Below are positions 41,997 through 45,757 of a stretch of 45,757 bases of DNA, piece after piece. Every line of letters begins with the position of its first letter. Positions within the stretch are counted from its first letter, which is position 1. The stretch covers positions 1 to 45,757 of the forward strand of contig JANXYQ010000080.1 in the NCBI GenBank assembly GCA_025355995.1, read 5' to 3'. The position numbers were made by a program, and so were the translations under genes. The notes beneath the pieces are model-generated. The model worked only from the letters and a program-made list of their open reading frames with translations, searched no databases and had not been told where the DNA came from. Source of the stretch: Spirochaetaceae bacterium. GTDB taxonomy: Bacteria > Spirochaetota > Spirochaetia > Treponematales > Rectinemataceae.

Positions 41997-42824
41997 TCAT
42001 GGGCGAAGCTTCAGGTAGTCCCGTACGTCGGCGGGGGTCGCAGGCTCGAGGCTGGCTTCCCTCGCGATGCGCGCCGCCCGCTCGACGAGCTCGGCGTTCG
42101 AGGCGGCGAGCCGTCCCTTGGAATAGTAGACGTTGTCCTCGAAGCCCACGCGTATCCATCCGCCGAGGGCGATCGAGCCGAATTGCGAAGGCAGGGACGA
42201 GCGGCCGATCCCCATCACGGTGTACTCGGCCCCCTCGGGCAGCGCGTCCACCATGGCCGCGAGCTCGCGGACGCCGTAGGGCAGGGCGCCGGGAACTCCC
42301 AGCACGAGGCCGTAGTGGTAGGGAGGCTCGACCAGGCCCTCCTTGATGAGAGCCAGGCTCGCGTAGACGTGGCCCAGGTCGAAGCACTCGAAGGTCGGCC
42401 GCACGCGGCGGGCCCGGAACTCGGCCGCGAACTCGCGCATGACCGGTAGAGTGTTGACGATATAGTCGTTGCCGAAATTGACGGTGCCGCAATCGAGGCT
42501 GGCCATCTCGGGCTCGAGCTCCTTGATCGGGCGCAGCCGCTCCTGGGGCGTGTCCCCCACGGCGCCGCCGGTCGTCAGCTCTATCACGATATCCGTCTTC
42601 TTCCTGATCGCCTCGATCGCACGCCTGAAGGTCCCGACGTCCTGCGTCGCCTTCCCGGCGGCGTCCCTGACGTGGAGGTGGAGGATCGCGGCGCCGGCCG
42701 CCCGAGCCTCCTCGGCCGCCGTCGCGATCTCGTCCGACGTGACGGGGAGCGCCGGGTTCTGCGCTTTGGAAGTCTCCGCCCCCGTGCAAGCGCAGGTGAT
42801 GACTACCTTGCGGTCGAGGCTCAT
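41997..42824 (-). CDS. kce: 3-keto-5-aminohexanoate cleavage enzyme (BKACE)
   Basis: A 275-aa zinc-dependent cleavage enzyme: 3-keto-5-aminohexanoate plus acetyl-CoA gives acetoacetate and 3-aminobutyryl-CoA. The zinc-binding pair is H49 and H51 in AAILHLHVRD, and conserved blocks are FGNDYIVNTLPVMREFA and RPTFECFDLGHVYASLALIKEGLVEPPYHYGLVLGVPG. The C-terminal glutamate expected as third ligand falls in the ...WIRVGFEDNVYYSKGRLA segment. The start is ATG 42824 (MSLDRKVVI), overlapping the aminotransferase stop by 4 bp; the longer upstream reading is not used. Confidence 0.96.
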   Translation of the reverse strand: MSLDRKVVITCACTGAETSKAQNPALPVTSDEIATAAEEARAAGAAILHLHVRDAAGKATQDVGTFRRAIEAIRKKTDIVIELTTGGAVGDTPQERLRPIKELEPEMASLDCGTVNFGNDYIVNTLPVMREFAAEFRARRVRPTFECFDLGHVYASLALIKEGLVEPPYHYGLVLGVPGALPYGVRELAAMVDALPEGAEYTVMGIGRSSLPSQFGSIALGGWIRVGFEDNVYYSKGRLAASNAELVERAARIAREASLEPATPADVRDYLKLRP

Positions 42825-44104
42825 GAGGCGCCTCCCGAGCGGGGGAATTTCGCGGCCGTGAGCTCGAGGGACTCCCCGATCGCCCACAGGGCCTTCTCGA
42901 GGTCAGCGTCGGTGTGCCGGTGCGCTATATACCAATGATGGAAGGGCTGCACGAAGAGGCCGCGGCGGATGGTCTGCGTGTAGAAGTACCCGCGGCGGGC
43001 CTTGTAGGTCCTATCGCCCTCTCCAGGAGTCTGGTGGAAGGTGATGTAGGGCATGGGCGGTATCCCCGAGACCTTGCAGGGAACGTCGGAGCCGTCCACG
43101 AGCCGCGTTAGGCGCTCGAGGAAAAGCGCGCCGCGCTTCCAGATCGACTCGGGGACCTTCTCCCGCTCGAGTATGTCGATGCATTTCATCGCCGCGACCA
43201 TCTCGAGGGAATTGGGGAAGAAGGTCGAGGACACGAAGACCTTCTTCTCGACGACGCTCATGAACTCCCGCTTGCCGACGACGGCGCTGATCGCGTAGCC
43301 GTTCGCCATCGCCTTGCCGAAGGTGGCGAGGTCGGGGGTCACTCCGTACCGCTCCTGGGCCCCGCCCATCGCGACGCGGAAGCCGGTGCGGACCTCATCG
43401 AAGATCAGGAGGGCGCCGTGCCTCGCGCATAGTTCGCGCACCGCTTCGAGGTATCCTGGGGGCGGCGCGACGACGGGCTTCGCGTTGGGGTGGCCGACCG
43501 GCGTGATGATCACGCAGGCGACCTCGCCCTTGCGCGCCTCGAGCTTGGCCTCGAGCTCGGCGGCGTCGCCGTACTCGAACTCGTCGGTGAGGGAGCTCGC
43601 CTCGTCGGGCACGCCGCCCCGGACCTCGACGCACCAGTCGTGCCAGCCGTGGTAGCCGCAGCGGAGGATGCGCTTCCGGTCGGTGAAGCCCCGGGCGATG
43701 CGCACGGCGAGGGTGGTCGCGTCGCTGCCGGTCTTGACGAGGATGGCCTGCTCGGCGCAGGGAATGAGCTTGGTCAGCCTGGCCTCGAGCTCGTTCTGGA
43801 CGCCCTGGACGAGGGCGAAGCAGAATCCCCGCCCCATCTGCCTCATGACCGCCTCGTTGATCTCGGCCTCGTCATAGCCGAGGATTATCGGCCCGTAGCC
43901 GCAGAGCATGTCGACGTAATCGTTGCCGTCGACGTCCACTATGTGGCCGCCGTAGCCCCGGTCGATGAAGATCGGATACTCGCCCTGCACGAAATTGTAG
44001 GGCCTGCGGATGCCCATCACGCCGCCCGGGGAGAGTCGCTGGGCCTCCTCGAACATGGAGAGGGACTTGTCGAGCCTGAGCCGCGGATATTCGGCTGCTG
44101 CCAT
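42821..44104 (-). CDS. kat: Class III aminotransferase, probable 3-aminobutyryl-CoA aminotransferase (Kat)
   Basis: A 427-aa PLP fold-type I aminotransferase of the glutamate-1-semialdehyde aminomutase-like class. PLP lysine K264 is in LATFGKAMANGY and D236 in LIFDEVRTGFR. GGxGHTG-like phosphate loop VKTGSDATTLAVRIAR and YHGWHDW complete the site. Position decides the call: it overlaps kce by 4 bp, where kal (ammonia lyase) would be in Clostridium or Fusobacterium. In Cloacamonas a homologous acyl-CoA beta-transaminase converts 3-aminobutyryl-CoA and 2-oxoglutarate to acetoacetyl-CoA and glutamate. I infer the same reaction here. An unrelated beta-amino-acid aminotransferase is the alternative. 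The start is ATG 44104 with AGGA 8 nt before it. Confidence 0.85.
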   Translation of the reverse strand: MAAAEYPRLRLDKSLSMFEEAQRLSPGGVMGIRRPYNFVQGEYPIFIDRGYGGHIVDVDGNDYVDMLCGYGPIILGYDEAEINEAVMRQMGRGFCFALVQGVQNELEARLTKLIPCAEQAILVKTGSDATTLAVRIARGFTDRKRILRCGYHGWHDWCVEVRGGVPDEASSLTDEFEYGDAAELEAKLEARKGEVACVIITPVGHPNAKPVVAPPPGYLEAVRELCARHGALLIFDEVRTGFRVAMGGAQERYGVTPDLATFGKAMANGYAISAVVGKREFMSVVEKKVFVSSTFFPNSLEMVAAMKCIDILEREKVPESIWKRGALFLERLTRLVDGSDVPCKVSGIPPMPYITFHQTPGEGDRTYKARRGYFYTQTIRRGLFVQPFHHWYIAHRHTDADLEKALWAIGESLELTAAKFPRSGGAS

Positions 44105-44335
44105 GGGGTGAGTCCTTTGAAGGAGGGAAGGGGGGTCTCGTCCACCCACCGGGCCTAGGCCCGGCCTCCCTGTACCGGCGCCCGGCCGAGAATGGCCTGC
44201 GCCGCGCCGGGGACGGGGAGCCCCCGGGCGACCGCGATGCGGTCACGTACAACGAATCGAAGCACGGGCCCTCGGGGCCCATGGAGGGACGGGCAGCCCC
44301 CGCTGGTTGAGCGTCATACCAGCTCGCCGTCCCTC
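44105..44335 (-). ncRNA. Candidate structured leader RNA upstream of kat
   Basis: A 231-nt untranslated segment with successive hairpins read on the minus strand. First is an outer 9-bp stem (44327-44335 with 44284-44292) enclosing a 6-bp stem GCTGGT / ACCAGC. Then comes a 9-bp stem with CGA loop (44263-44283) and an 8-bp stem with ATC loop (44228-44246). A 7-bp CCGGCGC / GCGCCGG stem with inner GGCC pairs (44175-44210) and a 16-bp palindrome (44149-44164) follow. Two of the stems contain one G-U pair that would be a C-A mismatch on the plus strand, so the minus-strand RNA is favoured. A possible promoter ends 8 nt before the first stem. No known riboswitch consensus is recognised. Confidence 0.45.
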
Positions 44336-44343
44336 GCCTTATT

Positions 44344-44372
44344 TATATCATGCCTATGCCGGTTCGGTCCAA
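44344..44372 (-). promoter_or_regulatory. Candidate internal promoter after kdd
   Basis: Minus strand: TTGGAC at 44367-44372, 17 bp, GATATA at 44344-44349 (or TATAAA with 19 bp). It starts just after the kdd stop, and its predicted start site, about 44337, is next to the first stem of the structured leader. Confidence 0.45.
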
Positions 44373-44375
44373 CCC

Positions 44376-45416
44376 TTACTTTACGTACTGCTCCTCGAAG
44401 AGCTTGCGAAGCTTGGGGTTCTCCCGGAGCTCCCATAGGGTGATCTCGGCGTGGTCCTTCGTGTAGCCGTTGCCGATGATCATGTTCACGTCCTTCCCGA
44501 TGCCTTCGGCCCCGAGCGCGGCGCGCGTGAAGCTGGTGGCCATGCTGAAGAAATACACCGTACCGTCGTCGCGGACGGGGAGGATAGAGGCCATCTCCGC
44601 GCCTTGGATGTTCACGCAGTTGATGCAGAGGTCGACTTCCCTCCCGCCGTTGGCCGCGAGGGTCGCTTCGAGCACGTCGATCGGCTTGGTCGCGTCGACG
44701 ACGATGACGGCGTGGGCGAGGCCGAGGTCCGTCAGCGTCTTCCTGGACCTCTCGGAATGGATGGCGGCGATGACCCTGCCGGTCGGGCCCACGCGCTTCA
44801 TCGCCTCGTAGCAGCAGAGGATTCCCGACTTGCCGCCCGCGCCGAGCACAAGCACCGACATCCCGGGACGGACGAGCTTGGCGGTCTGGGCGGGCGCGCC
44901 CGCGACGTCGAGGGCGGCGAGCGCGAGGCCCTCGTCCATGTCGGAGGGCAGCTTCGCGTAGATGCCCGTCTCGAAGAGGATGGCCTGGGCCTCGACCTCG
45001 ACCCTGTCGATCTCCGGATGGACCTTGATTATCCGCTTGATATTGAGGGGGGTCAGCGAAAGGGAAACGAGGCTGGCTATCTTGTCCCCGACCTTGAGGT
45101 CCCTGCCGGCGAGCGCGCTCCCGATCCGCGCGACCTTGCCGATGAGCATGCCGCCCGAGCCCGTGACCGGATTCTGCTGCTTGCCCCGCGATGATACTAT
45201 GCCGAGAATCGTCGCCTTGATCTTATCGACGTCGCCCTTGGCCTCGTCCTCTATCTGCGTGAAGCTCGCCGAGTCGATGTTGAGCGCGAGCACATCGACG
45301 AGTATCTCGTTGTCGTAGAGCTTGGACATGTCGTTGTCGAGCTTCTGCGCCGCCTGGGGCATCGCCCCGGCAGGCTCGAGGACGCGATGAGTACCGTACT
45401 TGTTGCCCAGTGCCAT
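44376..45416 (-). CDS. kdd: L-erythro-3,5-diaminohexanoate dehydrogenase
   Basis: A 346-aa NAD(P)-dependent dehydrogenase oxidising 3,5-diaminohexanoate to 3-keto-5-aminohexanoate with ammonia release. It opens MALGNKYGTHRVLEPAGAMPQAAQKLDND, a known Kdd N-terminus, and has the nucleotide-binding loop VLVLGAGGKSG in the middle. GKQQNPVTGSGGMLIG and IGNGYTKDHAEITLWELRE are other typical blocks. GGAGG lies 8 nt before ATG 45416 and a near-consensus promoter precedes it, so kdd is the first gene of the run. A 271-bp gap separates it from kat. Confidence 0.95.
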   Translation of the reverse strand: MALGNKYGTHRVLEPAGAMPQAAQKLDNDMSKLYDNEILVDVLALNIDSASFTQIEDEAKGDVDKIKATILGIVSSRGKQQNPVTGSGGMLIGKVARIGSALAGRDLKVGDKIASLVSLSLTPLNIKRIIKVHPEIDRVEVEAQAILFETGIYAKLPSDMDEGLALAALDVAGAPAQTAKLVRPGMSVLVLGAGGKSGILCCYEAMKRVGPTGRVIAAIHSERSRKTLTDLGLAHAVIVVDATKPIDVLEATLAANGGREVDLCINCVNIQGAEMASILPVRDDGTVYFFSMATSFTRAALGAEGIGKDVNMIIGNGYTKDHAEITLWELRENPKLRKLFEEQYVK

Positions 45417-45526: not shown

Positions 45527-45751
45527 ATGCGAATCTCGAAGACGACGCTCAAGGCCGACGCTCTCCTCCTGCTCACGGCCGCGATCTGGGGCTCCGCCTT
45601 CGTCGCCCAGCGGAGCGGCATGGAGAGCATCGGCCCCTTCGCCTTCAACGCCGTCCGCTTCGCCGTAGGGGCCTTGAGCGTCCTGCCGCTCTTCTTCGTA
45701 ATGCGCCGCCGGGCCCGAGGGGCCGGCCCCGCGGGCCCCGCGGGGCAATAA
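45527..45751 (+). CDS. EamA/DMT-family transporter, N-terminal fragment
   Basis: Encodes 74 residues: a basic start, a first membrane helix (DALLLLTAAIWGSAFVAQRSGME) and a second (FAFNAVRFAVGALSVLPLFFVMRRR). These are the first two helices of a drug/metabolite transporter of the EamA type, where AxxWGSxFV and FxxxRFxxG are conserved. A full protein has about 10 helices and 290 aa. Here the frame stops at TAA 45749 after a run of G and C. In the next frame the window's last codons would read G-N-K-K, a plausible continuation, so a one-base error or mutation in the GC run is likely. The window ends 6 bp later. Confidence 0.75.
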   Translation: MRISKTTLKADALLLLTAAIWGSAFVAQRSGMESIGPFAFNAVRFAVGALSVLPLFFVMRRRARGAGPAGPAGQ

Positions 45752-45757
45752 GAAGAA

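Follow-up and report, generated by a model that had tools for sequence, protein, structure and literature searches.

A putative new structured RNA in the kdd-kat gap of spirochaete lysine-fermentation operons

Locus and parts of the RNA

A 271-nt gap between the lysine-fermentation genes kdd and kat of an uncultured spirochaete raises the question of whether it holds a functional RNA and, if so, what this RNA does for its neighbours. The window, i.e., the whole stretch of DNA analysed (45,757 nt), makes up all of contig C49 in a spirochaete genome of 4.5 Mb. The gene order on the minus strand is kdd, the gap, kat (start at 44104), kce, and the kam genes. The kdd product and both lysine 5,6-aminomutase subunits, alpha and beta, scored above their NCBIfam cut-offs; the matches for kce, KamC, and KamB were below theirs. 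In a variant lysine pathway, a class-III aminotransferase takes the place of the ammonia lyase Kal, and its activity was established as that of a 3-aminobutyryl-CoA aminotransferase (PMC3149608); by analogy, this is the probable function of Kat in the window. With Kat (42821-44104, minus strand) in place of Kal, the operon has the make-up of that variant route, in a spirochaete. Divergent from kdd is a gene for an EamA-type transporter (45527-45757, plus strand), cut at the contig end. The features of the locus are as follows.

44376-45416, minus strand: kdd, L-erythro-3,5-diaminohexanoate dehydrogenase, the upstream gene (NF052381, 267 bits, cut-off 200)
44105-44375: kdd-kat gap, from the kdd stop to the kat start
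44344-44372, minus strand: promoter-like TTGGAC-N17-GATATA (TTGGAC at 44367-44372, GATATA at 44344-44349)
44342-44347, minus strand: alternative TATAAA, 6 nt before P1
44120-44336, minus strand: whole structured RNA in the gap, P1 to P5, about 220 bases
44196-44336, minus strand: core (covariance model R1, 94.9 bits)
44327-44335, minus strand: P1 5' strand GAGGGACGG, pairs with 44284-44292
44318-44323, minus strand: P1b 5' strand GCTGGT, covariation in 4 of 5 counted pairs
44302-44307, minus strand: P1b 3' strand ACCAGC
44293-44301, minus strand: large side of the P1 internal loop, GGGGGCTGC, with CGGGGGC invariant in 23/23 copies
44284-44292, minus strand: P1 3' strand CCGTCCCTC, pairs with 44327-44335
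44263-44283, minus strand: P2 hairpin CATGGGCCC..GGGCCCGTG, varies among genomes (seen by eye, from sequence)
44230-44244, minus strand: P3a hairpin GACCGC-ATC-GCGGTC, variable in sequence (seen by eye)
44207-44227, minus strand: P3 hairpin CCGGGGG-CTCCCCG-TCCCCGG with invariant loop, 100% of cells paired
44165-44171, minus strand: P5 5' strand AGGGAGG
44149-44164, minus strand: P5a hairpin CCGGGCCTAGGCCCGG, a hairpin at the same place in most copies (by eye)
44130-44147, minus strand: P5b hairpin with invariant GG-ACGAGA-CC (GGACGAGACC at 44134-44143)
44120-44126, minus strand: P5 3' strand CCTCCTT, adjoins the kat ribosome-binding site
44113-44118, minus strand: probable kat Shine-Dalgarno sequence AAAGGA, a potential pairing partner for TCCTT in P5
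42821-44104, minus strand: kat, class-III aminotransferase, the downstream gene (PF00202; HemL-like)

The RNA falls into two domains. Its 5' core consists of P1/P1b, whose internal loop holds the invariant GGGGGC, and of P3, whose CUCCCCG loop is likewise invariant. The 3' domain is a three-way junction of P5, P5a, and P5b (invariant loop ACGAGA) that stops near the ribosome-binding site of kat. Stable hairpins had been noted in the letters of the window, and RNA read from the minus strand of the gap indeed has a better fold than its shuffles (z-score -2.26, with 4 of 200 shuffles equally good) and than the plus-strand RNA (z-score -1.18, 27 of 200). The expected outer 9-bp stem is P1, and strand-specific G-U pairing was also borne out: P3 is closed by a G.U pair in 22 of 23 copies and by A.U in the remaining one, which identifies the kdd/kat (minus) strand as the functional, folding strand, and the P2 hairpin contains a U.G pair. 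Taken alone, the fold, stem, G.U pairs, and promoter-like sequence of the window copy are modest evidence. That the element is real and more than foldable GC-rich DNA was confirmed by related genomes.

Conservation, covariation, and distribution

A search with the gap sequence across 59 related genomes placed the best matches at the same site, adjoining kdd. Two genomes of another GTDB family share 29 of 29 identical nt with it, and two more 28 of 28. In the f4 genomes L011, L020, L021, L024, and L026, kdd is 68-78% identical with a longest exact run of 12-27 bases; the 29-nt identity in the RNA core exceeds any exact run in kdd of the f4 genomes compared. Three strings are common to nearly all copies, with CGGGGGC and CTCCCCGT present in 23/23 and GGACGAGACC intact in 21.

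In the 23-copy core alignment, which was fitted to the covariance model, helices P1, P1b, and P3 have 95.2% of cells paired and changes on both sides at 15 of 21 pairs (P1, 8/9; P3, 3/7). No shuffle was equally good, and with partners slid by one to three columns only 43-66% of cells were paired. RNAalifold without imposed structure returned the same helices, with 14 of 22 pairs compensatory. The core helices were paired to 95.2% (10 pairs) in an earlier MAFFT alignment and to 94.7% in nine loci left out of model building. For the 3' domain, 97.7% pairing and both-side changes at 8 of 11 pairs were counted, figures that are overstated because P5 partners were chosen per sequence for their complementarity. 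MAFFT did not align P5 across groups, so this helix was tested on cognate and swapped strands and on excised strands; cognate strands had a mean score of 14.5 versus 10.3 for swapped ones, a fairer but weaker test than the pair count. P5 is GGAGG/CCUCC in the family of the window and, at a similar place in the other family, AUCGG/CCGAU, GGUGG/CCACC, or CCGCG/CGCGG. P5b changed on both sides at 4 of 6 pairs, and its window copy has one U.C mismatch. Five helices (P1, P1b, P3, P5, and P5b) have the support of compensatory changes. The original prediction had been made dependent on conservation and compensatory changes in related genomes, and both were found, in 23 genomes. A conserved covarying structure with conserved unpaired bases is also what is expected of a riboswitch.

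At the site of P3a, relatives have AGACGG/CCGTCT or GACGCC/GGCGTT (by eye). A helix P4 (CTCGCC/GGCGAG) around P3 can be drawn in most f4 copies; the other copies pair differently or are unpaired there, and it is not claimed. Between P3 and P5, L020, L076, and their relatives carry a conserved GACGAGC...AGCCGGAACGTATCGGA, found in the second family only, which resembles a second copy of the GACGAG loop.

Covariance model R1, built from 12 copies of the 5' core, detected one copy in each of 23 genomes, all within the order; a sample of 393 genomes from the phylum yielded no others. By family, the counts are 17/23 genomes in one and 6/30 in the window's own. When 84,980 species were scanned for the P3 pattern, 28 stretches came up. 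Of these, 23 match the model and belong to entries of Spirochaetota or to one labelled simply 'bacterium'. The five non-spirochaete matches are due to chance: L084 is in the reading frame of a phosphatidylserine-synthase-like protein, and L075, L077, L078, and L080 do not match the model. A distant blastn search of a plasmid collection gave no match, and with a single copy per genome the element is not a dispersed or REP-like repeat. It appears to be a new structured RNA restricted to this lineage, as copies were found only in Spirochaetota.

All 23 copies are directly 3' of kdd and on its strand. Thirteen copies are followed by kat, eight by kce, and one by kamA, and behind the remaining one the contig ends; hence in 22 the RNA precedes candidate target genes on the same strand, as a riboswitch would. 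Several related genomes have kdd without the RNA. Genes with the RNA group together on the kdd tree (7 changes versus a shuffled mean of 12.4; 1 of 500 shuffles as low), with L027 scored as lacking it only owing to a contig end. This clustering would fit an element that is old and has been lost repeatedly, although it could also have been gained once in an ancestor of either family.

Two further observations concern these loci. In G015, the kdd-kce gap (L006, 1060-1459, minus strand) has a PD-(D/E)XK nuclease-like gene (PF13366) instead of the RNA. The gene is flanked by inverted CCACAGAGGCACAGAG repeats, similar repeats without a gene are present in the gaps of L007 and L013, and the insert has the appearance of a mobile cassette at the position that the RNA occupies in G003 of the same genus. 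Several genomes of the second family have a second kdd-like gene (L028-L031, 56-59% identical), which forms its own clade and is without the RNA.

Comparison with known RNAs

The window copy and seven relatives matched none of the 4227 families of Rfam 15, either at gathering score or at permissive E-values. The weak hits to NrsZ (10.7 bits), Hrs13, and anti-hemB were judged as chance matches. This, together with the 23 genomes and the covarying helices, upholds the prediction of an unrecognised structured RNA leader. The accessible literature on novel bacterial RNA motifs, with most subscription papers and supplementary tables outside the scope of the search, gave no earlier description.

The RNA resembles translational metabolite riboswitches in its conserved loops within covarying helices, its place before a metabolic gene, and its 3' end by the ribosome-binding site. 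It differs from them in lying inside the operon behind kdd, not at the 5' end, and in matching no Rfam family. The lysine riboswitch (L-box), cobalamin and glycine riboswitches, and the T-box are comparable through their relation to the amino acid or cofactor of the operon, but none of them matched at gathering score or at E-values up to 1-5. The Na+-I (DUF1646) riboswitch precedes lysine 2,3-aminomutase in Dehalobacter (PMC9337991) and thus also represents RNA control of a lysine aminomutase gene; however, it gave no Rfam match here, and its context is osmolytes, not fermentation. The aspC motif, known mostly from environmental DNA, is a three-stem junction before an amino acid aminotransferase gene and has very few highly conserved nucleotides (PMC11109978). 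The kdd-kat RNA shares the three-stem junction directly before an aminotransferase gene, but its three invariant or nearly invariant strings set it apart from the description of aspC.

Possible function and rival explanations

In 12 of 13 kat-adjacent copies, 27-38 nt separate the end of P5b from the kat ATG (the exception, L070, has about 95 nt), and internal lengths of the RNA vary by about 50 nt. In L074 and L101, where kce follows, the 3' hairpin is absent or damaged and the cores still score 117-138 bits. Because spacing to kat is fixed and the 3' hairpin is lost or damaged before kce, the 3' domain probably serves kat and the core probably has a function of its own; in genomes that have lost kat, the core apparently can work in the absence of the 3' junction. 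Eight copies stand before kce without tight spacing, so kat cannot be the sole target. G009 has no kat beside kdd; on the RNA strand of L098, at about 3555, ATGGCGGCC nevertheless occurs 31 nt past the RNA hairpin. This is the usual spacing of the kat start, so it is possibly a remnant of a deleted kat.

The reading somewhat favoured by these sequences is that the RNA regulates kat translation in cis. In the proposed mechanism, the invariant G tract of the P1 internal loop and the C tract of the P3 loop (CTCCCCG) would form a loop-loop pseudoknot joining the core. Such a GGGGGC/CUCCCCG pseudoknot is likely; the strings are complementary, and both sides are invariant, so they cannot show covariation. 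The pseudoknot would create a putative site where a pathway metabolite, a cofactor, or a protein could bind, and the P5 junction, once formed, would alter access of ribosomes to kat. In the family of the window, the P5 3' strand CCUCCUU could pair alternatively with the AAAGGA Shine-Dalgarno sequence. A bolder and only tentative extension is that the RNA represents a new class of riboswitch, the first tied to lysine fermentation, which would sense a pathway intermediate or cofactor through the loop-loop pseudoknot and control kat together with the genes that follow. Conceivable ligands are, for example, beta-lysine, 3,5-diaminohexanoate, and an aminoacyl-CoA.

Partition functions were divided on the switch itself. 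Pairing of the Shine-Dalgarno sequence drops when P5 forms in L003 (0.61 to 0.20) and L097 (0.60 to 0.09), and in other genomes it rises or hardly changes when P5 can form. For the initially suggested, hypothetical riboswitch of amino-acid or B12 use, a switch that hides the Shine-Dalgarno sequence at the ribosome-binding site thus has partial support, in some genomes and not consistently across them. The attenuator proposed as its alternative is unlikely, as the copies have neither a common terminator after the RNA nor a shared leader peptide frame, with distances between the invariant motifs taking all three phases.

Control of kat in cis has to be weighed against rival explanations. Rather improbable is an element of mRNA processing or stability with no sensing function, separating kdd from the rest of the operon and protecting the kdd 3' or kat 5' end. 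Very stable stems, placed directly 3' of kdd whatever follows, kce and kamA included, would suit it, but a mere hairpin does not need the invariant unpaired CGGGGGC, CTCCCCG, and ACGAGA (21-23 of 23 copies) or constant spacing from the kat start.

It is unlikely that the element is an independent small RNA, transcribed from a promoter of its own and housed in the operon by chance, that acts in trans or on a protein. The promoter-like TTGGAC-N17-GATATA had been taken as a transcription start of the RNA; the sequence is present, although a consensus promoter scan did not call it. The window genome, G001, and G004 have TATAAA exactly 6 nt ahead of P1, and in the window genome and G001 it is preceded by TTGGAC, so a start of its own is possible in the window genome and its close relatives. 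As a family-wide trait the promoter failed, since none was found in the other family or in G003 and G009 and the window plus two near relatives have it at most. Retention of the core in L074, which has lost kat and the 3' hairpin, agrees with a small RNA, but the patchy promoter, the missing common terminator, and the finding of no copy away from kdd argue against it.

Quite unlikely too is a protein-binding site, by which an enzyme of the operon or a regulator would control translation of the downstream genes. Strict association with one locus, rigid spacing to kat, and conserved loops suitable for protein binding are consistent with it; most protein-binding leaders, however, are smaller than this RNA with its two-domain architecture. 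Chance folding of GC-rich intergenic DNA or a repeat, for which the modest fold z-score of the window's own copy could speak, is refuted by the single copy in its genome, by 29 identical nt across families versus runs of 12-27 in kdd, and by covariation in both the core and the 3' domain.

The kdd-kat RNA appears to represent a so far undescribed family, firmly supported by comparison of genomes and tied to one clearly defined metabolic context. It is a good orphan for ligand discovery, as lysine fermentation offers few candidate ligands, and a ligand sensed by no known RNA would make it a new class. It also offers a handle on the control of amino-acid fermentation in anaerobic, mostly uncultured spirochaetes.
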